Virus record (IMG/VR): IMGVR_UViG_3300009431_000015
Span: 1-64,000 of that record
Direction: 5' to 3' (one strand)
Source of the DNA: a virus
Length of the DNA stretch: 64,000 bases
The position numbers were made by a program, and so were the translations under genes. Every line of letters begins with the position of its first letter. The stretch's first letter is position 1. Positions 4,058-40,386 of the stretch are shown piece by piece. The notes under the pieces are model-generated. The model was not told the origin of the DNA, did not search any database, and saw only the letters and a program-made list of their open reading frames with translations.

Positions 4058-6859
4058 ATGAAAGTAGAAGAACACCAACAACGTGTATTAAAAAAGTTAG
4101 AGCGTACACCAAAACTCCTTGTTTATCATGGAACAGGCTCTGGGAAAACTTTAACAACTCTTCTTGCAGCTAAGAAAGAAAAAGCTCCTCTTACGGTTAT
4201 CGGTCCAGCAGCGCTTAAACATAACTTCCCGAAAGAGAGAGTTAAACATCGTTTATCTTCTCTGAAGATAAACTACCATTCGTATGCTAAACCGCCGGAT
4301 CTTACAGACCCTGAAACGGTTGCCCGAATATCTAAAAGTATCGTAGCTTTCGACGAAGCCCACCGCATGGGCAGAATTGAATCTAAGAGAAGCCGGTATC
4401 CAGAACTTTATAGAGGAAAGAAAGAACTCTATCTAACAGCTACTCCAATCAGGAATACCCCTGATGAACTTATTCCGATTCTTAGAGGGTTAGATATAAA
4501 CGTCCCTAGAGATAGGTCTCTATTTAATAAAATTTTCGTTAGAGAAGCTAAGATTAAACCGGGTATTATAGGTCGTTTGCGTGGCATTAAACCTGGAGTG
4601 AAAAAGATTCCAAAAAATTTAGAACCATTAAGACAAGCCTTAAAAGGCAAAGTAGATTACCATGCTCCTTCTAAGAAGGGTTACCCTACTGTAGAAGAAG
4701 AAGTTATTAAAACTGATATGTCAAAGAGACAAATGGCTACTTATCGTATGGCTCTCAAAGGTAAACCTAATCTTGCTTATAAAGTTAAGCATGGTATCCC
4801 GCCTAGTAAATCTGAAGCAGGTGCTATGAATGCTTTTTTATCTGCCAGTAGACAAATTAGCAATACTCCTGCGGCTTTCAATCTTTCAGCTGATACTAAA
4901 GATTCACCAAAGATTATGAAAGCTGTTAAGGAGATAAAGAAACACCATGCATCGGATCCAAATTACAGAGGTGTAACTTACTCTACATTTTTAGGTAGTG
5001 GAGTCGACGCAGTTGAAGGTGAGCTTAAGCGTTTACGAATTCCATACGCCCGGTTCACTGGCCAAACATCTAAAGAGCAGCGTAAAGCAATTATTAAGGC
5101 TTACAATACCGGTCGAGTCAAACACTTGCTCATATCGGGGTCAGGGGCCGAAGGATTAGATCTAAAAGGGACCAAATTGATGCAAATGTTAGAGCCTTAT
5201 TGGAATGAGCCCAGGCTGCAACAAGTTAAAGGAAGAGCTATTAGGTTCAAAAGTCATACTCATCTCCCAAAAGGAGAACAGAAAGTAAAGGTACAGAAGT
5301 TTATCTCGACTGTTCCTAAATCACTTTTGAATAAATTGAAGATTTCTAAGAAAAAGCTTTCAACAGATGAATATATCTCTATGCTTGCGAAGAACAAACG
5401 TGAGTTGGTTCAACCATTCCTGGGTGTTTTAAAAACAGCTAAATTAGAGGTAAAGTCAATGGAAAAATATTTTAAAAAAGAAGCAGGTGCTGAGAAGTTT
5501 TTTATTCCAGGCGGAGCAGTTGCAGGTGGAGCTATCGGAGGCATTGCTGGTTATAGAGGTTCTACTGTTAAGAAAAAATCCAGGAAAGAAAAGATTAAAA
5601 AAGCAGTTCCTATAGCACTTGGCGGAGCTGTCATAGGCGGACTCGCCGGTTTGAGAGCTAGAGATGTCTACAGAGCTGTAAAATCTAGTAAAGAACGGTT
5701 TTCTAGTGCTGGTAGTGCTGGATGGGGCGGAGGTAGCTTCGGGGGTGATATGATACCTGGAAGAAAAGCCAAAGAAGCTTACAAATTTTTTGGGTTGAAA
5801 AGAAGTCCAAAAACAAAGAAAACTGACGTAAAAGAAGCATGGAGGAACTTTATGCGTGAGCACCATCCTGATAAAGTTGGTGATGACCCGGTAAGAACAC
5901 GCCGTGCAAAAGAAGCAACTCAGCATTGGCATGAGATAAGTCGGAAAGATAAAGATTTCTTTGATAAGCTTGGTAACTTTTTTGTTAAATTATCAGCCAG
6001 ATTCACTTATACAACTGATCAAAAATTAACTACCGGTGATGAACCAGCAGTACATGGAAGCTCGCCAGATGAAGTTATAAAGAAATGCAGAAAATTAGGC
6101 ATCGACCATAAGATATCAAGAATTGTTAAAGTCGCTGAGACTACTCCAGCTTATAAGAAAACAAAGAATACTCCAACAACTCAGGCGATCATAGCTCTCG
6201 GTGAAGAATGGATTAACCGCGTTCCACCCAAAGGAGTAATCAAGGAAGTAAAGAAAACCACGTTTAATAAAATAGCTTTTAGACTTGGGCGTAGTTTGGA
6301 GAGTTCAGCTACGCGTTTCATCAGAAAAATGTATAAAAAACCTACTGAAGAAATAAAAAAGTTTAGATCATTCCAGGAATTGGGTAAAGCAGATGTATAC
6401 CCTATCCATGAAGTACGTGCAAAAGTATTCGAAACCTATTCAAGCGGTCCTAAAGGAATGTTGGCTCAATTACATGCTTTGACGAAACAAGTCCCAACTA
6501 AGAACATACCACGTAAAGCCAAACATTTAGTGTTTACTCATGAGCCAAGCGGACAAACAGCTATATTTAGAAGAGCTTCGGCTGATATAATAAAAAGTAA
6601 AAAAGACAAGAAGTTAAAAAAGGCGGATGCATTCCATCTAGTGACTATTCTTCCACACAAAAAGAAAGTTGGACCGGGGTATTGGGATCTAGAACATCAA
6701 AAATTTGTAGAAAGCATTAAAGGATATTATGGAAATAAATTAGAGTTTTTTCCAGGCGAAACTAAGATTACTGGGGACTTAAGATATATGAAGAAAAAAC
6801 AAGTTATGGAAAGAATACAAACACCAATGGCAAAAGCGGCCATGAAATTTATACATTAA
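4058..6859 (+). CDS. SF2 helicase fused in frame to a membrane J-domain protein
   Basis: 933 aa. Residues 1-450 are an SNF2/DEAH-type superfamily 2 helicase: Walker A GTGSGKT (25-31), DEAH (99-102), LTATP near 126, and a helicase C domain with Q-x-x-G-R near 390. From M468 the character changes: two glycine-zipper hydrophobic segments (about 482-500 and 517-532), a Gly/Ser linker, then a J-domain (about 571-640) with helices around the invariant H603-P604-D605. J-domains stimulate Hsp70 ATPase. The last 290 aa are basic and unrecognised. M468 has its own good ribosome site, so a free 466-residue J-domain protein may also be made. Helicase plus J-domain in one chain is unusual. Confidence 0.8.
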   Translation: MKVEEHQQRVLKKLERTPKLLVYHGTGSGKTLTTLLAAKKEKAPLTVIGPAALKHNFPKERVKHRLSSLKINYHSYAKPPDLTDPETVARISKSIVAFDEAHRMGRIESKRSRYPELYRGKKELYLTATPIRNTPDELIPILRGLDINVPRDRSLFNKIFVREAKIKPGIIGRLRGIKPGVKKIPKNLEPLRQALKGKVDYHAPSKKGYPTVEEEVIKTDMSKRQMATYRMALKGKPNLAYKVKHGIPPSKSEAGAMNAFLSASRQISNTPAAFNLSADTKDSPKIMKAVKEIKKHHASDPNYRGVTYSTFLGSGVDAVEGELKRLRIPYARFTGQTSKEQRKAIIKAYNTGRVKHLLISGSGAEGLDLKGTKLMQMLEPYWNEPRLQQVKGRAIRFKSHTHLPKGEQKVKVQKFISTVPKSLLNKLKISKKKLSTDEYISMLAKNKRELVQPFLGVLKTAKLEVKSMEKYFKKEAGAEKFFIPGGAVAGGAIGGIAGYRGSTVKKKSRKEKIKKAVPIALGGAVIGGLAGLRARDVYRAVKSSKERFSSAGSAGWGGGSFGGDMIPGRKAKEAYKFFGLKRSPKTKKTDVKEAWRNFMREHHPDKVGDDPVRTRRAKEATQHWHEISRKDKDFFDKLGNFFVKLSARFTYTTDQKLTTGDEPAVHGSSPDEVIKKCRKLGIDHKISRIVKVAETTPAYKKTKNTPTTQAIIALGEEWINRVPPKGVIKEVKKTTFNKIAFRLGRSLESSATRFIRKMYKKPTEEIKKFRSFQELGKADVYPIHEVRAKVFETYSSGPKGMLAQLHALTKQVPTKNIPRKAKHLVFTHEPSGQTAIFRRASADIIKSKKDKKLKKADAFHLVTILPHKKKVGPGYWDLEHQKFVESIKGYYGNKLEFFPGETKITGDLRYMKKKQVMERIQTPMAKAAMKFIH
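5446..5461 (+). promoter_or_regulatory. Internal ribosome binding site and in-frame ATG
   Basis: AGAGG (5446-5450), eight bases, then ATG (5459-5461), codon 468 of the helicase/J-domain gene. The context TAGAGGTAAA before the ATG closely copies the ribosome site of the gene at 2000. The protein from this ATG starts with a lysine-rich, E-K-x-A-like N-terminus like other gene starts here. A second product is likely. Confidence 0.55.
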
Positions 6860-6873
6860 TTTGAGGAAATATT

Positions 6874-7110
6874 ATGACAAACATATGGGATTCATTTCAA
6901 CGTTTTATAGATAAATTACTTGTTAATCTATCTTCCAGGGAATTTCAAGTATTTAGTACAGCTACTTTTTTACTTTGGAAAGGAACACTTGATATAAGTA
7001 ATTGGGTAATAATAGCATGTGCTTATATGGGATTTAGGTTCTTTCAGAAAGTTAAAGAAAAAGAAATTGAAGCAAAGAACGAGAATAGCAAAAATCCAGT
7101 AAGCATTTAA
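6874..7110 (+). CDS. Small two-helix membrane protein, holin-like
   Basis: 78 aa. Residues about 24-42 and 43-58 are hydrophobic and could form a transmembrane hairpin, followed by a charged Lys/Glu-rich tail, the usual architecture of small phage holins. There is no lysin gene next to it, so a holin role is only possible. GAGGA ribosome site. Confidence 0.5.
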   Translation: MTNIWDSFQRFIDKLLVNLSSREFQVFSTATFLLWKGTLDISNWVIIACAYMGFRFFQKVKEKEIEAKNENSKNPVSI

Positions 7111-7154
7111 ATAACAAGGAACAAAAAGTAAGGAAAGTGGTATAACCATTAATT

Positions 7155-7382
7155 ATGAATATAATTATAGAACATTCAGGTACTGAAGACCATCTACAGT
7201 TAGTAGAGGGTCTTCGTAACCTCCTAGAAGACGAGCTTGGACATGATTCGGAAGAAGCCATAAAAAATATAGAACCGGCTGTTACATTATATGATCAGAA
7301 AAGGCGTACTATCGGAGTTTTTACAAAATTGCCCACCGTCCAGGAACTGGCCTTTTATATTAATATAAGTGGAGATAATTAA
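7155..7382 (+). CDS. Small acidic hypothetical protein
   Basis: 75 aa, acidic, predicted mixed alpha/beta, no membrane segment. AAGGAAAG precedes the ATG at some distance. The stop codon abuts the next ATG, so the two are probably translationally coupled. Function unknown. Confidence 0.55.
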   Translation: MNIIIEHSGTEDHLQLVEGLRNLLEDELGHDSEEAIKNIEPAVTLYDQKRRTIGVFTKLPTVQELAFYINISGDN

Positions 7383-7628
7383 ATGAATGACAAAAATATA
7401 TTTGATACAGAGAAAGTATTAGATAAATTAGTAACTGATGCTGATCATGAGCAGCTATTTACACAACTGGTAAAAGAAGGCTCCTTTACTAAGTTTGCAC
7501 AATTAGAGAATAAAGTAAATGAAGTATTTGGTGACAAACTGGATACAAATCTTGAGAAATTCGCTAATAAGCTTTCTCTTGATCGCAGAAGATTAAAAGA
7601 ATTATTCACCAATACAACCAGTAAATAA
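7383..7628 (+). CDS. Small helical hypothetical protein
   Basis: 81 aa, charged and mostly helical by composition, ending in a basic Arg/Lys-rich helix. It begins immediately after the stop of the preceding gene. It is followed by the A-rich tandem repeat. No family recognised. Confidence 0.55.
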   Translation: MNDKNIFDTEKVLDKLVTDADHEQLFTQLVKEGSFTKFAQLENKVNEVFGDKLDTNLEKFANKLSLDRRRLKELFTNTTSK

Positions 7629-10152: not shown

Positions 10153-10413
10153 ATGACTAACGCAGTAGTAGAAGTACAGAATAACAACATCAATGTAGCT
10201 TTAAAAAAATTCAAGAAAAAGATTGAACGCATTGGTTTAATGGATGAACTCAAAAGGCGCTCTTACCATATGAAGCCATCAGATGCAAGAAAGGAAAAAA
10301 GTAGAAGAGCCGTGAGTAGGAGAAAAGGCGAGAGACTTAGAGACCTCAGGGAAAAGACAAAAAGAGATGAATATGATCTATCTGAAATGAATCTACAAGG
10401 TTTTCTTAAATGA
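10153..10413 (+). CDS. rpsU: Ribosomal protein bS21
   Basis: 86 aa. It has the family hallmarks: short acidic start, V-A-L-K-K-F-K-K-K-I-E-R-x-G, then E-L-K-R-R-S-Y-x-x-K-P-S-x-x-R-K-E-K followed by a basic helix. The KPS form resembles the FCB-group version. bS21 lies by the anti-Shine-Dalgarno of the 30S subunit, and phage copies are known in large phages. The extra C-terminal acidic tail (about 65-86) is longer than in typical bS21. Its stop overlaps the terminase start (ATGA), so the two are co-translated. Confidence 0.9.
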   Translation: MTNAVVEVQNNNINVALKKFKKKIERIGLMDELKRRSYHMKPSDARKEKSRRAVSRRKGERLRDLREKTKRDEYDLSEMNLQGFLK

Positions 10414-13187
10414 GTAAAACGAAACAAACTATAGAATTAAGTAGGAGTAACTTTGCTGAGGAGTTTTTGTATTTGAAGGGGCAGCCATTCTCCCTTGACC
10501 ACTATCCATTTTTAAGAACTGTATATGATCGTCCTTTAGAAAAAGATTTAGTATTAAAGTTCTCGAGGCAATGCGTTCTAGATGAACAAATAATCCATCT
10601 CGCTGATGGAAGTCCAAAGTTAGCTAAAGATTTATTTCCAGGGGATCCTATTATTGGGTTTGACACAGTAATAGCAAAAAATGTGTTAGATCGAGTTAAA
10701 AATGTTTGGGATAATGGAATACAGCCTGTTTATGAAATTACTACCAGAACAGGTAGATGCGTTAAGGTAACTGATAATCATCCATTTCGAAAAATTGATC
10801 GTTGGATCGAAGCACAAGACTTAATCCCTGGCGATCTTATAGCTCTTTCTAGAGATAACTCTTGTTCTCTTTCTAAAGAAAAAACTATAGAAAATTGGGA
10901 ATATACTGTAGCAGCCTATCTTCTTGCTGAGGGATCTATAAGTAGTATGAGTCTTGGTTTTACTAATTGTAATAGTGATTATGTCAGCGAATTAGAAGAT
11001 GCTTTAAAGAATATACATCAAGATATTACTTTAAATAAGCTTCCTGAAAAATATAAAGGACAATATAGAATAAATGGATTAGGTTCGGGTACTAAACATC
11101 CGGTTAAAGAATGGTTAATTGGGTTAGGAATGTATGGTAAAACATCTGCTTATAAATCTCATCCAGATTTTGTTTGGAACCTTACTAAAGATCAGATTTG
11201 TGATTATCTGCGTATATGGTGGAATACAGACGGTTACTGGTCAATTAATAAGATAGGATCTCACTGTGTAGGCATAGGGCTTATTTCTAAAGAACTTGTT
11301 TATGGAATACAAAGGTTATTATTGAAATTAGGAATACATTCTGTTATTAGAACAGATACTCCTGAGATATACAAAAATACCGATAAAGAAGTTTTTACAT
11401 TAACTGTAGAAGGTCAATATAATATCAAATTATTTAACAAGTTAATACAGACTGATAAGGGACCAAAAAAAGTTGTTTATAATAAAGAGAGCCATAATAA
11501 ACTTGTTATGGATAAACAATTTGTAAATAGTCAATTAGATACATTAGATAAAAAATATAGAAATTCAGTTCTTTATAAAACACAGAACGGTACTAGCAAA
11601 ACTTACTCATTTGAAAAAGTTCATAGAATGTGTGAAGTAGCCGATCTCCCCGAATTACAAAAGATAATTGATGGAGACATCTATTTTGATAAAGTGAAAT
11701 CTGTTGAGTACATAGGGGATTTATCAACCACAGCAATAGAAACAGAGCTTACTCATACTTTTCAAATTGAAGGCTTACCAAGTGCTAACACTAGTAAAAG
11801 TACAACGTTAGCAAACTTTATGATTATTGATTCGGCGATGATACCACATCTACATTCTCTTTATGTAGCGCCGACTAGTGATCAAACTAAGATTTTTTCT
11901 CATGATCGCTTTCGCCCAGTAATGGAGGGGTCGCCGCTTATATCAGAGAATTATATTGATTCGTCGGTTGTCCAAAATGTTTTTCAGAAAACTTTCCTAA
12001 ACGGGAGCACGTGTTACCTAAGGTACAGCTTACTCTCGGCTGATCGTCTTAGAGGAATCTCTGCTGACATAAATATTTTTGACGAGGCACAAGATCTTAG
12101 ATCTGACAATCTTCCTGTTATAAAAGAAACAATGAGCAGATCTGAGATAAAAAGAACCATTATGTCAGGCACTCCCAAAAGAACTCAAGGTACTCTAGCT
12201 GATGCCTGGAATAATTCTACTATGAATGAGTTCATTCTCAGATGTGAGGCTTGTAATCACTGGAACATCTTGGGTGAAGCCAACATAGGATTGGAAGGTG
12301 TTATTTGCGAGAGGTGCGGCGGACCAATTGATGTATCAACTGGTCAGTGGGTTAGTAATTACGGTGATAAAAACAAAATGCCTAGTACAGAAGGCTATCG
12401 AGTTTGTTTACTTCACTTTGCAAGGGCTCCGTGGGTAAATTGGCAAAAGGATGTTATTGCTAAATATGAAGGATTAAAAAAAAGCTATTTTTATAATGAA
12501 GTCCTGGCTTTGGAATATGATGAAGGGGCTTCACCGCTTACTCTTCAGGAAATTAAAAACGCTTGTGATCCTGGTAAGGTTAATGATACAACTCTTTCTT
12601 CGCTGGAGAAATCTTACATCAATGTTATGGGGATAGACTACGGCCCAATCAATTCCGAGGAAAGTCACACAGTTGTCTCCGTAGTGCAGATCAGAAATGG
12701 AATAGCACATGTGATTTATGCAAAGAAGTTTGCGGGAAAAGAGGCTGATTTTTCATTTATTCATAAAGAAGTTCCGCGTTTGATGGAACATTTCAATGTT
12801 CATGTCCTTGCCGCTGACTATGGTATGGGGGAAGCGAGTAATAGTGAGATACGATCTAAAGTAGGAGTACAAAAGGTTATTGCATTCCAACACATGCCTA
12901 CGCAAAAAGAGAAGATTCGCTGGAATCCAAAGATGCCAGCTTATACGTTAAATCGTACACAGGTAATAACTGAATTTTTTTCTAGGGTAAAAAAAGGAAA
13001 AATAATCTTCCCTTGTTGGGAGGATATACAAGAACAAAAATTTCATAAAGATTTACTAAACACTCAAATGGAATTTGATGAAGGACGTAATCTTATGAAA
13101 TATGTAAACATAGGTCCTGATGATTTTCTTCACGCGACTCTTTACGCTGTTATAGCACAAGACTTGTTTCAAGGAGTAGCACAATGA
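10410..13187 (+). CDS. terL: Terminase large subunit, interrupted by an intein
   Basis: 925-aa precursor, about 519 aa after splicing. Extein features: adenine-side region L-K-F-S-R-Q, P-loop completed only after splicing (S-R-Q / T-S-K-S-T), Walker B I-N-I-F-D-E-A-Q, a zinc knuckle pair (C-E-A-C, C-E-R-C), and an RNase H-type nuclease with G-I-D-Y-G, A-A-D-Y-G and P-D-D-F-L-H. It packages DNA into the prohead. The completed P-loop lacks the usual Gly before Lys (TSKST). The gene starts inside the bS21 stop, and a 13-codon ORF overlaps its own stop. Confidence 0.95.
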   Translation: MSKTKQTIELSRSNFAEEFLYLKGQPFSLDHYPFLRTVYDRPLEKDLVLKFSRQCVLDEQIIHLADGSPKLAKDLFPGDPIIGFDTVIAKNVLDRVKNVWDNGIQPVYEITTRTGRCVKVTDNHPFRKIDRWIEAQDLIPGDLIALSRDNSCSLSKEKTIENWEYTVAAYLLAEGSISSMSLGFTNCNSDYVSELEDALKNIHQDITLNKLPEKYKGQYRINGLGSGTKHPVKEWLIGLGMYGKTSAYKSHPDFVWNLTKDQICDYLRIWWNTDGYWSINKIGSHCVGIGLISKELVYGIQRLLLKLGIHSVIRTDTPEIYKNTDKEVFTLTVEGQYNIKLFNKLIQTDKGPKKVVYNKESHNKLVMDKQFVNSQLDTLDKKYRNSVLYKTQNGTSKTYSFEKVHRMCEVADLPELQKIIDGDIYFDKVKSVEYIGDLSTTAIETELTHTFQIEGLPSANTSKSTTLANFMIIDSAMIPHLHSLYVAPTSDQTKIFSHDRFRPVMEGSPLISENYIDSSVVQNVFQKTFLNGSTCYLRYSLLSADRLRGISADINIFDEAQDLRSDNLPVIKETMSRSEIKRTIMSGTPKRTQGTLADAWNNSTMNEFILRCEACNHWNILGEANIGLEGVICERCGGPIDVSTGQWVSNYGDKNKMPSTEGYRVCLLHFARAPWVNWQKDVIAKYEGLKKSYFYNEVLALEYDEGASPLTLQEIKNACDPGKVNDTTLSSLEKSYINVMGIDYGPINSEESHTVVSVVQIRNGIAHVIYAKKFAGKEADFSFIHKEVPRLMEHFNVHVLAADYGMGEASNSEIRSKVGVQKVIAFQHMPTQKEKIRWNPKMPAYTLNRTQVITEFFSRVKKGKIIFPCWEDIQEQKFHKDLLNTQMEFDEGRNLMKYVNIGPDDFLHATLYAVIAQDLFQGVAQ
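10572..11789 (+). mobile_element. Intein with LAGLIDADG endonuclease in terminase
   Basis: 406 aa, C55 to N460 of the precursor. The N-terminal block begins C-V-L-D with D-G, G-D and G-F-D turns typical of Hint domains. T-D-N-H-P supplies block B. Two endonuclease helices are seen (Y-L-L-A-E-G-S and W-W-N-T-D-G-Y-W). The C-terminal end is S-A-N followed by Thr as +1 residue; the usual penultimate His is Ala. Splicing rebuilds the ATPase P-loop. Confidence 0.92.
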
Positions 13188-31625: not shown

Positions 31626-32423
31626 CATTTGTGTTACGAACTAACCGATTCCGTCAGTTCTCTTTAGATTTCTCTAAAGATCGGACTATATCATAAGCCC
31701 TACGGCCTCTAAGATCCTTCGGTATATCTTTATACCTACTCGCGTATTTTGCGATAGTCTCTGAGGATGGTATTTTATATTTGTAATCATGGTTATTAAA
31801 CTTATTTAGAATATTAGCTATTGTAGGAGTGTCATACACTTTAAATTGTAAAAAGTAGCCTTTAGCTCCTTTTTGTTTATGATATGTACTATGCAACCCA
31901 AACTTAGTATTTAACAAGTTTTCGAATTGGGTAGCAAATCGTTTAGAGTATTCTTTTCCAATATATAAATTATAGTAGTTTAATGTTTTATGGAAAGAAC
32001 CGTTATCAAATATTAATAAGGCGAACCCTAGCTGGTCTATCGGTCCTAATGCGCGCTCTACTTCCCAAAAACTTGATTCTTTTAATTTATTAAGAGTATC
32101 TGATTTACCTAGGGTAAACTCATAAAGTATATTTTTTCTATTAACTGATCCCCAAAGGTTAGATTTTTGTATAGTAGTTATCAGTGAATGCTTATATTCT
32201 AAATAGTTCTTTACATAACCTCCAAATTTTATTCTTAAAACTCTTTTTTGGCGCATCCAGTATGAGTCACCAGTATAAGAGCTTATTATTAATTGTTTTT
32301 CTTTTTTTGTCATTTATACCTGTCCTGCTGATTGCCCAATCCTATAAATTTTTACACTACGGTATTATAGGCTCTAAGGGTATTCCAGCATATCATCTTA
32401 GTTTAATCATGACGGTTTTCGCT
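31626..32423 (-). ncRNA. Group I intron in DNA polymerase gene
   Basis: 798 nt. The 5' exon ends in U and the intron ends in G, as in group I. The last seven exon bases TCATGAT pair fully with GTCATGA 10 bases into the intron (P1 with the U-G wobble at the splice site). R-like CAGAGACTATCG (about 31753-31764) and S-like GATATAGTCC (about 31683-31692) can form P7. Joining the exons restores V-H-D-E-I-L-V-E. It carries a homing endonuclease ORF whose 3' end overlaps the P7 core. Confidence 0.92.
31654..32313 (-). CDS. LAGLIDADG homing endonuclease in intron
   Basis: 219 aa. G-P-I-D-Q-L-G-F-A-L-L-I-F-D-N-G-S-F corresponds to the acidic helix of LAGLIDADG type 2 intron endonucleases (A-x-W-x-M-D-D-G-S). 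L-N-Y-Y-N-L-Y-I-G and L-N-T-K-F-G-L follow as in that family. One acidic position is Asn here (F-D-N-G instead of M-D-D-G), which may reduce activity. It lies entirely inside the polA intron and is expected to spread the intron to intronless polA alleles. Confidence 0.8.
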   Translation of the reverse strand: MTKKEKQLIISSYTGDSYWMRQKRVLRIKFGGYVKNYLEYKHSLITTIQKSNLWGSVNRKNILYEFTLGKSDTLNKLKESSFWEVERALGPIDQLGFALLIFDNGSFHKTLNYYNLYIGKEYSKRFATQFENLLNTKFGLHSTYHKQKGAKGYFLQFKVYDTPTIANILNKFNNHDYKYKIPSSETIAKYASRYKDIPKDLRGRRAYDIVRSLEKSKEN

Positions 32424-34073
32424 ATCATGAACTATATTTACAATTTTTGCGTCCCAATTGTGCTTAATTATACTTCTTCTAACCAAGCACCCAGCGTGTT
32501 TAGTTACACTGGCACCTGCTCCTTGGAATGGAATATTTTTACAGATATTCATGTAATGATTTACTACGCCAGGGTTGTCCCAATCTCCAGAGGACAAATC
32601 TCGTCTACGACCGTCTAGTGGAGAAAGAGCATACTTATTTTCTTTTCCCTTACTCATAAGTGTGTTCATACAGCTAGCTATTCCGGGGAATACCTGAAAA
32701 TATTTCTTCAATAATGCTGATGCCTCTTTTATATCTATTTTGAGATTATCGGCTAAGCGTTTTGCGCCTATTCCATAAACAATTCCAAAATTTAGAGATT
32801 TAGCCGGTTGACGGTATTTAATGCCCATTTCCTTTATTAGTTTACCGTTTTTATCGAAGAAGTCTTCATATGGAATATCGTATATAATACAAGCAGAATA
32901 ACAATGTAAATCTTTTCCTTCTCTTAATGCCGTCAGAAATGCTGGCTCTTGTGAAAGAAATGCTAACAGTTTCAATTCCTGTTGAGCATAGTCAGCGCAG
33001 ATTATTTTTCTTGTTTTATCCGGAGCTTCGAATGGTGTTCTATACTCTTGTGCTCTTGGGATATTCGTCAGGTTAGGGTTCCTGCTCGAAAATCTGCCTG
33101 TCTCAGCACCAAGTTGTAAAAAGGTAGAGTAGATTCTACCATCTTCACGGACATGCTGATCTACAAAGGATTGCCCATATGTATCTATTTTTTTAACAGC
33201 ACGTCTATAATTAAATAGTGCTTTTATTACAGGATAACTACTCTCCAGTGCTTTTAAATATTTCTCCTCAGTTGTTTTGAGAGTGAAACCACATAACTTA
33301 CTCAGTATAGGCTTTATTTGTGTAACGCTTTTATAATTAATGACCGGGTCGCCGAATAGATCAATTTGACAATATTTTAAAAAGTGACTATCCAACTCTT
33401 TTTTGGCAATTTTGGCTTCTTTTTCAGCTGTTGTTTTCAATGCAAGCCATGCTTTTGTATTGATGTAGATCCCGTTAAGTTCTAAGTCACCGGTTAGTTT
33501 GGTTGACTCGTATTCAACAATTGATAACTTCCTCATGCCTCTTTCATTCAGAAGTTTCTGAATTGATTGATACGCCGGGATCAGGTATTGTACATCTTCT
33601 CCTGAATACTTGATTTGATTACTAGTAAATTCGCTACCAAATGGCAATCCTATAAATGTGGATCTTTCGTCTTTATCAAGATGAGTTCGCAAATATTTAT
33701 TTGCAACATCTGCTAATCCCGCATCGATACGTTTGCCTTGAGTCAGAAGCTTTTCTCCTATATATGTACATGCAACTCTTCCAGGATTAAACCCTAAGTG
33801 ATGTTTTAACATTTTATAATCAAATTTCATGTTGTGGGCTATTAATAAGCCCTTGCAGGTATTGAGGAAGGAAATTAATAGTGAGATACTTTTACCCAAT
33901 TTATACACATCAAATACATACTGATGTATTTCATTACCCAATTGAATTAATAATAAGTCATTAACAGTTGGGTTTAACCCGTTTGCTTCGGTATCCAAAC
34001 CTATCATATTTAGTTTATCTAAGTACTTGATAGCTTCTTTGATACCTTGTTCAGTTTTTACATATTTTATCAT
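32424..34073 (-). CDS. polA: DNA polymerase I (family A), 5' exon
   Basis: 550 aa of a 597-aa enzyme. Proofreading domain: L-D27-T-E29 (Exo I), H-N-M-K-F-D (Exo II), Y-S-G-E-D (Exo III), all acidic residues present. Polymerase domain: motif A C-A-D361-Y-A-Q-Q-E-L, O-helix R421-x3-K425-x3-F429-G, motif C I-V-N-I-V-H-D550 split by the intron. No 5'-nuclease domain. Phe429 predicts the E. coli-type dideoxy discrimination. Main replicative polymerase of the phage. If unspliced, the frame stops after six extra residues (at 32403), lacking the last catalytic Glu. Confidence 0.95.
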
Positions 34074-35801: not shown

Positions 35802-36309
35802 TTGTAAATTTGTCCATTATTGCTGATGCTTTACTAACTCTATGATGAACATCTGCGTCTGGGTTAGATAGGTTATTTTTGCCTGTGAGTGCCTCATGCA
35901 CTTTGGCGTCTTGATCAGCAGGAACAGGCTCCACAGAGTGTTCTTTAAATTTCTTGGATTCGTCAGCTTTTGTTTTTTTCGCTGGTTCAGCTTTTGTTTT
36001 TTTCGCTGGTTCAGCTTTTGCTTTTGTTGGCTTATCTATTTTCTTTACCCGGGGCTTTGGTTTCTTCGACATTGAAACATTTGTTACCTTCGTTATTTTT
36101 GTAGTGTGTAAATAAGATTCAATTATGTTAGCCAAGAAGTACCCAACTATATACATGCACAATAAAATAGTTACGTTGTGTGCCGCTTGTGTAAAAGGAA
36201 TAAACTCTTGGTATGCCCACATACTAAATATAAGCATTGCAAGTAATAAAAGTATTAATACCAATATTCCTTTATCACTTAGTAGTTTGTTTATGTTTAA
36301 TTTTTCCAT
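35794..36309 (-). CDS. Two-helix membrane protein with lysine/alanine/proline repeat
   Basis: 171 aa. Two transmembrane segments (about 15-33 and 45-64) are followed by a basic linker with the unit A-K-K-T-K-A-E-P repeated twice, then a charged soluble tail. No family recognised. Overlaps its neighbours on both sides, so it is in the same operon as the ubiquitin-like genes. Confidence 0.65.
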   Translation of the reverse strand: MEKLNINKLLSDKGILVLILLLLAMLIFSMWAYQEFIPFTQAAHNVTILLCMYIVGYFLANIIESYLHTTKITKVTNVSMSKKPKPRVKKIDKPTKAKAEPAKKTKAEPAKKTKADESKKFKEHSVEPVPADQDAKVHEALTGKNNLSNPDADVHHRVSKASAIMDKFTNE

Positions 36310-36571
36310 TCTTATCGTATATTTCTCCGGTTGTTTTGTTAACGTACTGTCCAGTTCTTGCTACTTCCTCGCAGACAATACATTTATGTCCTGGTCTATT
36401 ATTACTACATTTTTTCGGGTTTTCCCAGTTATGGTAAATAGAATCCCAACGCTCATCAGATACATCCATATTGCTTTGTATATTCCAAATTTCTTTAAAA
36501 TCTCTTGATTGTCTCCTCATTTGCCTTGGCGGTTTTCCGGCTTGTTGACCAAGCGTGTTTACATTAGCCAT
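36275..36571 (-). CDS. Small zinc-binding protein next to E1-like gene
   Basis: 98 aa, basic. A C-x7-H-x-C-x2-C cluster (about 55-68) looks like a single zinc knuckle. It overlaps the E1-like gene by eight bases and the membrane-protein gene by 35, so translation is coupled. It could be a cofactor or target of the ubiquitin-like pathway. No E2-type catalytic pattern is visible. Confidence 0.6.
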   Translation of the reverse strand: MANVNTLGQQAGKPPRQMRRQSRDFKEIWNIQSNMDVSDERWDSIYHNWENPKKCSNNRPGHKCIVCEEVARTGQYVNKTTGEIYDKNGKIKHKQTTK

Positions 36572-37157
36572 ATAATCTCACATCCTCTATTGGTACGTTC
36601 TCATTTCTGGCCCAATTTAATAACATCTGTGAGCCAATAGCTGCTACTATTTTGTTACCTTGTTGAATGATCCCTTGCTCTAATTCATATTCGAGTTGGC
36701 AACTTTTGTCTTCGCCATCTTCTTTAGGAAGAGTGGCTAACATCTTTTTAAGAGTATTTTTCTTATTCTTTGAATAGAAAGCGATTCCTTTTCCTTCAGA
36801 TCTTAAATCAATCCAATAGAAATCCATTTTTTCAGCTGTGGTAAACAGTAATCTTCTAAAAGCAGGGTTATCAACACAACTTATGATTAAGTCATAGTCT
36901 TTCAATTGTTTTGCTTCTGTTATTCTTTTAGCTATCTTCTCAAAACCGTACCTAGCTGCTAAACTTTCAACTTTGTAATCTGTTACGTCTTCTATACCAA
37001 AGTTCTGGTATTTAATATTTTTTGTCTCTACTTCATCATCGTCTGCAAAAGTGATGAGTAGATGATCTGTTTGTTCATGATGATTTAGATCATCAAGAAA
37101 AAAAGCAAGCCAGCTACCGATTCCACCGGCCCCAACTATCAATACATTCTTTGCCAT
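36564..37157 (-). CDS. E1/ThiF-type ubiquitin-like activating enzyme
   Basis: 197 aa. Adenylation domain: V-G9-A-G-G-I-G14-S nucleotide loop, acidic D-D-D-E-V-E-T-K-N-I, Y-Q-N-F, K62, and a S-C-V-D-N-P-A-F-R-R block. Cys153 (K-S-C-Q-L) before G-x-x-V-A-A-I-G-S-Q-M-L sits where E1 enzymes place the thioester or crossover cysteine. The usual N-x-x-R-Q arginine is replaced (N-I-K-Y-Q). At under 200 aa it is a minimal, single-domain E1. Starts directly after the JAB gene and lies three genes from the Gly-Gly protein. Confidence 0.85.
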   Translation of the reverse strand: MAKNVLIVGAGGIGSWLAFFLDDLNHHEQTDHLLITFADDDEVETKNIKYQNFGIEDVTDYKVESLAARYGFEKIAKRITEAKQLKDYDLIISCVDNPAFRRLLFTTAEKMDFYWIDLRSEGKGIAFYSKNKKNTLKKMLATLPKEDGEDKSCQLEYELEQGIIQQGNKIVAAIGSQMLLNWARNENVPIEDVRLYG

Positions 37158-37697
37158 TTATATCATATCTCCATGTTTCATGTTATCAGTTATAGCTGAT
37201 TCATTAAATGCTGTTCTGTGTGACTCTATTTCTTTTACAATAACTTCAACTTCTTTGAATCCAAATTCTTCTCCGTCGTAATACTGGGCCGAAAATCGAG
37301 CACATCCCGGAGAATAGATTAAATAAATTCCAGCATATCCTGAATTGTTTGCTTCTCCTTGACCGTTACCAAATATGTCTGTATGAGATGGTATTGGAAT
37401 ACTTAACCCCGGATGCGTGTGGAATACTCCAACGAAGTCACGATTTGCATTGGGATTTATATGAGTGGTTTTTTTCAAAGTGTTTAGAAGATCGTTTGGA
37501 TTTGGGACATAATCTACTCGTGTATTATTTCGTCCAATATTTTTCCAAGGATCAAAGTCCATTATTCGAATCCAGCCATTATTTGCTTGGTTGATTCCAA
37601 GAAGACCGCCACAGACCTCATCATCTGTGGATGTATTGCCGTACGTGATTACCGCTATTAATGGTTTAATATCTAAGTAGCATTTAATTTTTTCCAT
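37158..37697 (-). CDS. JAB/MPN (JAMM) metallopeptidase
   Basis: 179 aa from the chosen start. JAMM motif complete: E27, H93-T-H95-P, seven residues, S104-x2-D107. Such enzymes remove ubiquitin-like proteins or trim their C-termini. A longer start at 37748 is possible, but its first codons lie in the hairpin at 37719-37752 and read a low-complexity peptide, so the ATG at 37697 is preferred. The gene ends one base before the E1-like ATG. Confidence 0.87.
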   Translation of the reverse strand: MEKIKCYLDIKPLIAVITYGNTSTDDEVCGGLLGINQANNGWIRIMDFDPWKNIGRNNTRVDYVPNPNDLLNTLKKTTHINPNANRDFVGVFHTHPGLSIPIPSHTDIFGNGQGEANNSGYAGIYLIYSPGCARFSAQYYDGEEFGFKEVEVIVKEIESHRTAFNESAITDNMKHGDMI

Positions 37698-37718
37698 CTT
37701 TAGTTTCCCATTTAATGT

Positions 37719-37752
37719 AATAATGGCTAAGACTGTAGCCCTAGCCATTATT
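37719..37752 (-). terminator. Hairpin between Ubl and JAB genes
   Basis: AATAATGGCTA (37719-37729) and TAGCCATTATT (37742-37752) form a perfect 11-bp stem with a 12-base loop, starting 15 bases after the Ubl stop. The tract after it on the minus strand is only partly U-rich, so partial termination is likely. That would make Ubl mRNA more abundant than JAB and E1 mRNA. Confidence 0.6.
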
Positions 37753-37766
37753 ATCAGATTATTAGA

Positions 37767-38015
37767 TTAGCCGCCGACAAGTGAATTAATCAGTGTGACG
37801 TCTTCTGCATCAACTAACATATCGATGGTCATGTCGTTGGGATTTACAAAGTTCCCATCAATCATCGCCCATTTTGCTTCATTTTCACAAAGGTCACGAA
37901 TGTTATCTATCGCAATTTCTGCATCTTCTTCGAAATCACTGTGGCCTCTGGTACTGACCACTTTATATTTGATTTTTGTCAGCGCTTTGTCTAGACTTTT
38001 TCTCTTTAGTGCCAT
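37767..38015 (-). CDS. Ubiquitin-like protein ending in Gly-Gly
   Basis: 82 aa ending L-V-G81-G82, so no processing is needed to expose the diglycine. The last 35 residues follow ubiquitin's pattern: I-D-G-N-F turn, M-T-I-D-M-L, D-A-E-D-V-T-L-I-N-S-L-V-G-G. Upstream a beta hairpin and a helix fit a beta-grasp fold. Clustered with an E1-like and a JAB gene on the same strand. The start has GAGG upstream. Covalent attachment to host or phage targets is the expected role, by inference. Confidence 0.8.
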   Translation of the reverse strand: MALKRKSLDKALTKIKYKVVSTRGHSDFEEDAEIAIDNIRDLCENEAKWAMIDGNFVNPNDMTIDMLVDAEDVTLINSLVGG

Positions 38016-38064: not shown

Positions 38065-40386
38065 TTAAAGAGTGCTGATTTGTGTAGCTAATCGACTGTC
38101 ATTATGTAATGCGTAGATCCGATTGACTACCTTGTCAGCTCCCACTTGGCTTTTGCTTTTGTCAACTATGCATATGTAATTACCACTTGGGTAATCATAT
38201 ACACCGTTGCGGCCGTCTGAGCCTTCTTTTATTTCTAGGACGTAACTTCGTGTTTGCCCATTAATGAGATAACCCTCGATGGTGTTTCCATTAGTCATTG
38301 TATGTTTTGCAACTTGTATATTAAACATAGTTTCAGCGTGTTTTAGAAGTTCTTTACTTTTTTCGATAGCAGTAGTGTAAGCTTTTTTTGCTCCATCAAT
38401 AACTACTTTTATATCGTCTATTAGAACTCCTTCTACAATTGCTGAATTCATTAATACATTTACAACATCCATCAGGTCTCTGCTATTTTGCAATTTAATA
38501 ATTTTTTGTGTATCTTTAATTTTATAAAGCTTATCAGCAACAGACAGATAATTAAGATTTTTACGTCTTTCTATTACTAGTTTAATACTTAACTGGGCTT
38601 GTTCAAAGTTGTCATATGGAGCAATGTCCACACCTGTTTGTAAGTATCTATGGAATTTTAAGGAACACTTGCTCACTTCTTTAAGGAAATAGTCAAAATC
38701 AGATTGTTTCTCGAAACATAACCCTCTTTCTACACAGGCCCTAACTTCTTCACGGTTAATACGATACCCATTTATGTAAGTCCGCTCACTGGATATTCCA
38801 TCAGAATTAGTCAGTGTTCGTATTTCTATTTTAAATGCGACATCCCCAATTGTGCCTCGTAGTGTTTTCCAGCTGGTAGTCTCATCTTTAATAAACATTT
38901 TACTGTATCTAGAATAATCTTGTTTTGATGCAAGATAATCCAGGAACCTGCCTAAGACATTATCAAAAGTGACCCTGTCTAGATCATGGTAATCTGTAGC
39001 TTTTACTAAGATGGTATGAGCCCAGTTTTTTACTTCTGGATCTTTGACATCATCTGGGATATCAAAGGTTAACTTCTGATCTTCATAGGAGATAAAATCT
39101 TTTGTGTATGTTACCTCATTGATAGTGAGTTTTCCGCCTTCATCTAATACTTTAATTTTTTCTTTAATTTTGGCTTTTAACTTTTCTTTTTGTTTACCTT
39201 CTTCCTCAGCTCTAGACGCCCTCTGTTCGTGCCTTTTAGTAAGTAAGAGCAGATCGTTAGTATCCAAAACCTCTTGCGCGCCCGCTGGCAATCTATTAAG
39301 ATAGTCTTCTAAGACAAAATCTCTGGGGAGAACTGGTTCTCGCTCAGTTAACACAGCAGAACCAAGGAATGGTTCTGATTCATAACCATGGTGGTTTACA
39401 CCCTTGTTTTTTGATAAGAACAATCTTCCCGCATCTATATAGTCATACATTGGATTTGTATGAGGGATTACTTGTAATCTAAAATTAGTGGTAGTGGAAT
39501 CATTATTATAAATGTAGGATCTGTTTCCGCTTGGGGCCATCGTTAAGAAAAATCTGGAGTTATCTGTTTCGAAAACATCTGTTATTAACCTCAGGTATTT
39601 ACTAGAGGAGTATATATCAAAGGTTGCTTGATGTTTTTTTGCTTCATAATTAAAGCGAGTATGCTTAATTTTTGGAAAAACTTTTTTTAAAAAAGCTGTT
39701 AAAATGTCACAATAGTTATTTGAGTGACCATTATAACTACCATCTATTTTAACGTAAGTATTTAAAAATCTGTTAGCATCCTCGTGATTCTCCAGAAATG
39801 ATGTACGCAGGTAAGAGTATAACTCAGTAACTGTTGTAAATGCTCTTTTCTGAAAAAAGTTTATAGGAAACAGTGAGCTATTATCATGTTTTACAAAAGT
39901 TAATATTTTACGAAATAATTCTAGTTTTGCTAAGGAATTTTTTGTTAGGCGCTTAAAAATAATGCCATCCTTTTCTCTGCTTATGCTGTTTGCATAATTG
40001 TTAGCCCCTAACACAAAACCATGTGTTTTAGCTTTTCGCAAAAGCAGCTCACTGCCTTCTTCACGTTCTTCATCTTCATCTGTTGTCTTACTATCTATTT
40101 TAAAAAACTCTATTTCTTTAGAATCGTAAGTACTTTTTCCAGATGCTGAAGCCATGCTTGTTTTTGCTCTAACTAGAATTGATAAATTCCTTATTAATTC
40201 CTCGTACGTTGTTTCGGTACTCCCACGTTGATTTTCACGAGTTTGGTCAAGTGTTTCTGTTTTATCATCTTTCTCTTTATTAACTAAACTCTCTGGAAAA
40301 GAGCATAATTTTTCAACTTCTTCTTTGGTGAATCCTAAAGAATATAAATTATTGATTGCTGGGAATAATTGTTTACTTGTTTGCAT
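38065..40386 (-). CDS. Large hypothetical protein upstream of the Ubl
   Basis: 773 aa, soluble. The N-terminal 20-30 residues (L-Y-S-L-G-F-T-K-E-E-V-E-K-L) have the look of a UBA-type helix but the match is weak. A charged coiled coil lies at about 390-425, and a region near 560-620 carries a few conserved-looking cysteines. Nothing else is recognised. It is 49 bases upstream of the Ubl gene on the same strand. A role in substrate choice for that pathway is speculative. Confidence 0.65.
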   Translation of the reverse strand: MQTSKQLFPAINNLYSLGFTKEEVEKLCSFPESLVNKEKDDKTETLDQTRENQRGSTETTYEELIRNLSILVRAKTSMASASGKSTYDSKEIEFFKIDSKTTDEDEEREEGSELLLRKAKTHGFVLGANNYANSISREKDGIIFKRLTKNSLAKLELFRKILTFVKHDNSSLFPINFFQKRAFTTVTELYSYLRTSFLENHEDANRFLNTYVKIDGSYNGHSNNYCDILTAFLKKVFPKIKHTRFNYEAKKHQATFDIYSSSKYLRLITDVFETDNSRFFLTMAPSGNRSYIYNNDSTTTNFRLQVIPHTNPMYDYIDAGRLFLSKNKGVNHHGYESEPFLGSAVLTEREPVLPRDFVLEDYLNRLPAGAQEVLDTNDLLLLTKRHEQRASRAEEEGKQKEKLKAKIKEKIKVLDEGGKLTINEVTYTKDFISYEDQKLTFDIPDDVKDPEVKNWAHTILVKATDYHDLDRVTFDNVLGRFLDYLASKQDYSRYSKMFIKDETTSWKTLRGTIGDVAFKIEIRTLTNSDGISSERTYINGYRINREEVRACVERGLCFEKQSDFDYFLKEVSKCSLKFHRYLQTGVDIAPYDNFEQAQLSIKLVIERRKNLNYLSVADKLYKIKDTQKIIKLQNSRDLMDVVNVLMNSAIVEGVLIDDIKVVIDGAKKAYTTAIEKSKELLKHAETMFNIQVAKHTMTNGNTIEGYLINGQTRSYVLEIKEGSDGRNGVYDYPSGNYICIVDKSKSQVGADKVVNRIYALHNDSRLATQISTL

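Follow-up and report, generated by a model that had tools for sequence, protein, structure and literature searches.

Tagging by ubiquitin-like proteins (Ubls) in prokaryotes has so far been known chiefly as host defence or as sulfur transfer. In the CysO/Mec and QbsE/QbsD sulfur-carrier pathways, a JAMM protease serves to mature the carrier or to release the product. The Bil system (BilABCD) comprises a Ubl, an E1 and a JAMM protease that processes the Ubl precursor (PMC11354881), while phages lambda and T1 encode the tail assembly proteins I (a Ubl) and K (a JAB) (PMC1779556). Here we describe a viral locus with elements of several such systems. It lies in a stretch of 64,000 nucleotides (the window), bases 1–64000 of the 67,778-base IMG/VR virus record IMGVR_UViG_3300009431_000015. 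The source virus is a tailed phage, as the window encodes a large terminase, DNA ligase, helicases, Sak4, an exonuclease and RecU. Four adjacent genes, for a 773-residue protein that we call BIG, a Ubl, a JAB/JAMM metalloprotease and a minimal E1, probably constitute a virus-encoded pathway of Ubl conjugation and deconjugation that is conserved within this phage group, and BIG is its candidate E2/E3-like partner. The features of the module are as follows.

38065..40386, minus strand: BIG, 773 residues, fourth module member and candidate E2/E3-like partner, directly upstream of the Ubl
38170..38172, minus strand: codon of BIG Cys739, in the motif YICIVDK, invariant in 20/20 full-length BIGs
37767..38015, minus strand: Ubl, 82 residues, C-terminus NSLVGG, identified by predicted fold, Foldseek matches and the conserved Gly-Gly
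37770..37775, minus strand: codons of Gly81-Gly82, the Ubl C-terminus
37158..37748, minus strand: JAB/JAMM metalloprotease, 196 residues from the first ATG; likely start, the ATG at 37697
37377..37421, minus strand: JAMM core, H110-T-H112 to S121-x-x-D124
36564..37157, minus strand: E1/ThiF-type Ubl-activating enzyme, 197 residues
36699..36701, minus strand: codon of E1 Cys153, the presumed thioester site

An initial annotation of the window had recognised the co-directional Ubl, JAB and E1 open reading frames (ORFs), which direct reading places on the minus strand at these positions, and its proposal of a phage module of Ubl, JAMM protease and minimal E1 is well supported by protein families, fold and conserved residues. 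The limits it drew, 36564–38015, are too narrow, as BIG with its invariant Cys belongs to the module.

Comparison with described systems

The module is not a PRTRC cassette, a Bil or CBASS system, or the lambda tail pair. It shares a Ubl, an E1 and a JAMM protease with Bil; however, its Ubl is a single domain where that of Bil has two, its 197-residue E1 lacks the inactive adenylation and Cys domains, and it is phage-encoded. The CEHH E2 of Bil was not found, and no E2 family of Pfam matched BIG or its neighbours. The E1 also resembles the E1 domain of Cap2, the E1-E2 fusion that accompanies the JAB protein Cap3 in type II CBASS, but the module has no such fusion and its Ubl is a true beta-grasp protein; no CD-NTase or cGAS-like enzyme was detected by Pfam among the neighbours tested. 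Thus, the likeness to Bil and CBASS that had been drawn initially holds in outline, whereas the defining parts of both are absent. PADLOC gave weak matches to its E1-E2 and JAB models and left BIG and the Ubl unmatched.

Lambda and T1 likewise encode a Ubl and a JAB as neighbours, but these lack an E1 and sit in the tail gene cluster, while the module lies beside replication and transcription genes. The archaeal SAMP system (UbaA E1, desampylase/JAMM1) also joins a minimal E1 to a JAMM protease without a canonical E2, and its desampylase and JAMM1 are the best matches of the module JAB; the module differs in being a virus-encoded operon with a different Ubl family and a BIG partner. Finally, PRTRC cassettes of plasmids, and PRTRC-like sets in phages such as KLEB27-3, BgVeeders33 and ME3, cluster a JAB, a ThiF-type E1 and small proteins on mobile elements, and PRTRC-like phage E1s share the invariant residues of the window E1, including C153. 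By contrast, the window E1 lies far under the PRTRC_ThiF cut-off of NCBIfam (8.6e-14, 51 bits versus 145), BIG is present, the JAB motif differs, and PRTRC A, B and C found no NCBIfam match among ten module and neighbour proteins of the window. E1s from BIG-bearing loci form a single clade (support 98/91) apart from those of PRTRC-like phages, in which most JAB partners are longer and have HSH...D motifs; the separate clade and the differing partners set the module apart from PRTRC.

The four genes are linked in divergent phages

A DNA-level search of cultured phages gave no match, nor did JAB, BIG and Ubl when compared by tblastn with 50,697 phage records; scans with single proteins recovered a near-identical contig alone (IMG/VR contig 3300013120_000579 is 99.99% identical to the window over the 20 kb compared). 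An alignment that included distant phage E1s led to a 210-kb phage with BIG, Ubl, JAB and E1 in the same order, in which the E1 is 61% identical and the Ubl 44% identical with the LVGG end retained; an E1 alignment of six sequences proved too diverse for scanning. In the first set of relatives, identities to the window were 41–59% for E1, 31–40% for JAB and 35–48% for Ubl. Successive alignments extended the collection to 53 loci, all found via E1 or BIG; loci are cited below by L numbers.

In profile scans, 28 of the 53 loci had all of BIG, Ubl, JAB and E1, and 19 were left once copies had been removed. Of these 19, 17 share the fixed setting RecU, p139, BIG, Ubl, JAB, E1, sigma factor, PolA, although RecU or p139 escaped detection in a small number; in L059 and L066 the order is Ubl, BIG, JAB, E1 and the surroundings differ. 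Ratios of nonsynonymous to synonymous substitution rates (dN/dS), with saturated dS comparisons omitted, were 0.06–0.17 in close pairs, which indicates purifying selection. The recurrence of the same genes in order in divergent phages, together with these ratios, takes the module beyond chance.

Conserved features of the Ubl, JAMM protease and E1

Family searches with the window Ubl alone, Pfam and NCBIfam among them, gave no match. An AlphaFold2 (AF2) model built from 20 sequences (predicted local distance difference test (pLDDT) score 83) shows the order strand-strand-helix-strand-strand-helix-strand, the topology of a ubiquitin-type beta-grasp. The top 50 Foldseek matches were nearly all ubiquitin, SUMO, NEDD8 or Ubls, and the closest solved structures were NEDD8, SUMO, ubiquitin-like domains and the bacterial Ubls 8tyz and 8tyx. 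Hence the beta-grasp fold, the lack of which the initial annotation had named as fatal to its proposal, is predicted, which counts in favour of that proposal. The exposed Gly-Gly that it had seen at the end of the 82-residue protein was read directly, and G81 and G82 are invariant in 20 aligned Ubls.

Among 24 Ubls of the family (a count that excludes L032), Gly-Gly is kept at the domain end in all, 14 stop there and ten continue. The tails are C in L053 and L060, SY in L063, SL in L064 and L065, Q in L067, NAN in L036, AAQE in L059, and long extensions of 160 residues in L057 (gene at 6753–7460) and 157 residues in L066 (4593–5324). The long forms resemble ubiquitin precursor fusions, and comparison of the two extensions found no detectable relationship between them. 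These precursors have to be cleaved after Gly-Gly, which implies the action of the neighbouring JAMM protease, and the need for removal argues that the Gly-Gly is functional.

The JAB contains the complete E...HxH...SxxD catalytic set, E44, H110, H112, S121 and D124 when counted from the first ATG. The E27, H93, H95, S104 and D107 reported earlier are the same residues in a count that begins at the internal ATG (37697), the likelier true start according to alignment with relatives. The core and the catalytic Glu are invariant in six aligned relatives. Matches were obtained to Pfam Prok-JAB (1.5e-5, barely above the curated cut-off), NCBIfam desampylase (1.5e-10, under the cut-off) and, by profile, PDB 2kcq (1.2e-10) and JAMM1 (8e-7). 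Some relatives carry an ORF of 226–273 residues with weak helix-turn-helix matches between Ubl and JAB (L012 4722–5528; L026 10474–11154; L028 8732–9553), which is absent from the window.

The E1 matches Pfam ThiF (1.3e-14) and, in profile searches of the PDB, E1s including SUMO E1, NEDD8 E1 and Cap2. It has the GxGGxG nucleotide site, D-x-D, the conserved D/N/R residues and a Cys at the catalytic position, with Tyr50 where the usual RQ motif has its Arg. Its only cysteines are C95 and C153, and the CxxC zinc motifs of MoeB/ThiF are missing. Cys153, earlier judged a plausible catalytic residue of this 197-residue enzyme, is invariant in 21/21 BIG-class E1s, as are the nucleotide-site residues, and was also invariant in a six-phage alignment that took in PRTRC-like E1s.

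Phage E1s also include a second and larger class (L068–L086, L005, L008, L009 and L013), which takes in crAss-like phages; its JAB neighbours are mostly of 200–600 residues, at times with small proteins bearing Gly-Gly near the end, and L013 has a PRTRC_C-like ORF. L005 corresponds to gp246c and gp247c of Salmonella phage Arash, where the E1 is annotated as a structural protein. Peptides of Gp246 and Gp247 were reported from Arash particles (PMC10585845), in a list that holds many enzymes and whose numbering may be shifted. An E1 match labelled Acinetobacter phage MD-2021a was rejected as an ordinary bacterial MoeB locus.

BIG is a constant fourth partner

The collection contains 20 nonredundant BIG homologues. 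An alignment of 22 BIG cores, archaeal-type ones included, has seven invariant positions, Cys739 among them. The AF2 model of the core (residues 510–773; pLDDT 87, predicted template modelling score 0.60) terminates in a long helix followed by short strands, then the invariant Cys and a final helix, the order known from UBC domains. Three strong BFVD matches (E 4e-8 to 7e-7, probability 1.00) are to viral proteins of 416–452 residues, which give BIG no function because they are unnamed. As fold and profile comparisons were not significant, BIG is a candidate E2/E3-like partner, or else a dedicated substrate or adaptor, as judged from its conservation and model.

All four parts also occur, in dispersed order, in the marine-looking virus contigs L060, L063, L064, L065 and L067, which encode a Ubl of 66–76 residues, a BIG homologue of 385–475 residues, an E1 and a downstream JAB with HTHPFG...D. 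As a group, the homologues of L060, L063, L064 and L067 match BIG by hhalign (E 8e-7, probability 92%); that of L067 was missed by a short motif search. A TFIIB-type gene (zinc ribbon, 4e-7), tested in L060 alone, suggests an archaeal host, and these five are likely archaeal viruses. Their size is presumably like that of magroviruses. In the contig L032, assigned by binning to a nanoarchaeon, BIG and E1 are accompanied by a questionable Ubl, with no JAB on the stretch examined.

A proposed pathway and its alternatives

For the chemistry, the role of BIG and the targets, we infer the following scheme. The JAMM protease would cut after Gly-Gly in Ubls with extra C-terminal residues, the window Ubl being already exposed. 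The minimal E1 would adenylate the Ubl C-terminus and then take the Ubl onto Cys153, from which it may be handed to BIG, perhaps to Cys739; alternatively, BIG may recruit the substrate or may itself be the substrate. The Ubl would then be attached to a target amine, and the JAMM protease would take it off again. Given the gene position, the likeliest targets would be phage or host proteins of replication or transcription. It is possible, although less likely than not, that BIG founds an unrecognised E2-/E3-like enzyme family using Cys739 and that the four genes are a self-sufficient Ubl pathway, core to tailed phages and archaeal viruses, that tags such proteins.

The pathway is supported by the predicted Ubl fold, the E1 and JAB families, the invariant C153, JAMM residues and Gly-Gly, the removable tails of ten of 24 Ubls, the four-gene block of 17 phages and its counterparts in archaeal-type viruses, the single E1 clade of BIG-bearing loci, the low dN/dS ratios and the failure to find a rhodanese in seven records. 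Several points weigh against a conjugation pathway. No conjugate has been observed, and no recognised E2 was found in any member. Searches with UQ_con, Prok-E2_B and Prok-E2_D had no match in seven records, although the controls were equally silent, so that absence is not shown; the initial statement that no E2 is present stands for recognised E2 families only, and it overlooked the conserved 773-residue BIG at 38065–40386. Foldseek of the BIG core against the PDB gave nothing significant, only weak TSG101-UEV matches (E 3.4), and hhalign of BIG with four E2s paired the Cys residues, at a score in the range of shuffles; discounting the TSG101-UEV matches, BIG as an E2 has no significant support by sequence, profile or whole-core fold. 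The Foldseek E-values of the Ubl are modest one by one (0.01–0.13), although the agreement across the list is strong. Moreover, the Ubl tails do not discriminate between conjugation and sulfur transfer, since maturation of Gly-Gly carriers by JAMM proteases is also known from sulfur-carrier pathways.

Sulfur-carrier chemistry is indeed the main rival. Here the E1-activated Ubl would be thiocarboxylated and pass its sulfur on to a metabolite, a nucleotide or a tRNA, with the JAMM protease maturing the carrier or releasing the product. By size the E1 falls into the ThiF/MoeB class, matches to ThiS were seen for two Ubls (best 8e-4), and the Gly-Gly-Cys tails of L053 and L060 are reminiscent of QbsE. 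However, the E1 lacks the zinc motifs of MoeB/ThiF, no sulfur-metabolism gene was noticed adjoining the module, and rhodanese, the usual sulfur-transfer partner, was found in none of seven virus records (the window's and six relatives; control positive in 13/14 genomes), though the records are possibly incomplete and a host enzyme could serve. We therefore consider this chemistry unlikely. Less probable still is a counter-defence decoy, in which the phage Ubl and JAMM protease disturb host Bil- or CBASS-type conjugation aimed at virions or signalling infection. Host systems of this type exist (PMC10097602; Bil in PMC11354881) and the weak PADLOC matches are compatible, but an own E1 or BIG would be superfluous to a decoy, the block is constant rather than variable in position across 17 phages, and the archaeal-type viruses have the same parts. 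The last alternative is that the phage has acquired a PRTRC cassette of divergent type. PRTRC_ThiF is the top NCBIfam match of the E1, and PRTRC-like JAB and ThiF are present in other phages; set against the sub-threshold score, the lack of A, B and C matches in the window and the separate E1 clade, this reading is already disfavoured and very improbable.

Neighbouring genes

Immediately downstream of the E1 lies a further small gene.

36275..36571, minus strand: 98-residue protein with a possible zinc knuckle, candidate accessory

H47, C55, C64 and C67 are kept in 8/8 aligned homologues of this protein, and its homologues in L035, L036, L037, L039, L048, L051 and L056 each adjoin the E1; by this conservation and position, it could be an adaptor of the module. 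The window PolA ORF (32403–34073) stops early at a conserved ...VHD motif, and PolA is split into two ORFs in several relatives (also L035, L042 and L048), which suggests an intron, intein or similar insertion. In the window terminase ORF (10410–13187, 925 residues), the terminase match is confined to residues 463–920, which leaves the first half as additional sequence without explanation. No proteasome subunit was found in the window's record or six relatives, with a positive control.

Implications for viral biology

None of the open papers covered by text searches described such a module (subscription papers and preprints were outside the scope), and a comparative jumbo-phage survey does not mention JAB and names ubiquitin for eukaryotic viruses only (PMC7824862). 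The fourth partner gene, BIG, is previously unremarked. Its constant place, with the rest of the module, beside recombination, sigma-factor and DNA-polymerase genes and under strong constraint suggests a role in the viral life cycle, and hints that this role is core rather than optional counter-defence. If the proposed pathway is correct, viruses would be regular users of a Ubl pathway, with a conserved Ubl-E1-JAMM block and a constant fourth partner, and these small, defined gene sets would allow one to ask how conjugation works without a recognised E2. As the module recurs in tailed phages and archaeal-looking viruses, protein tagging may be core to the life of these viruses.
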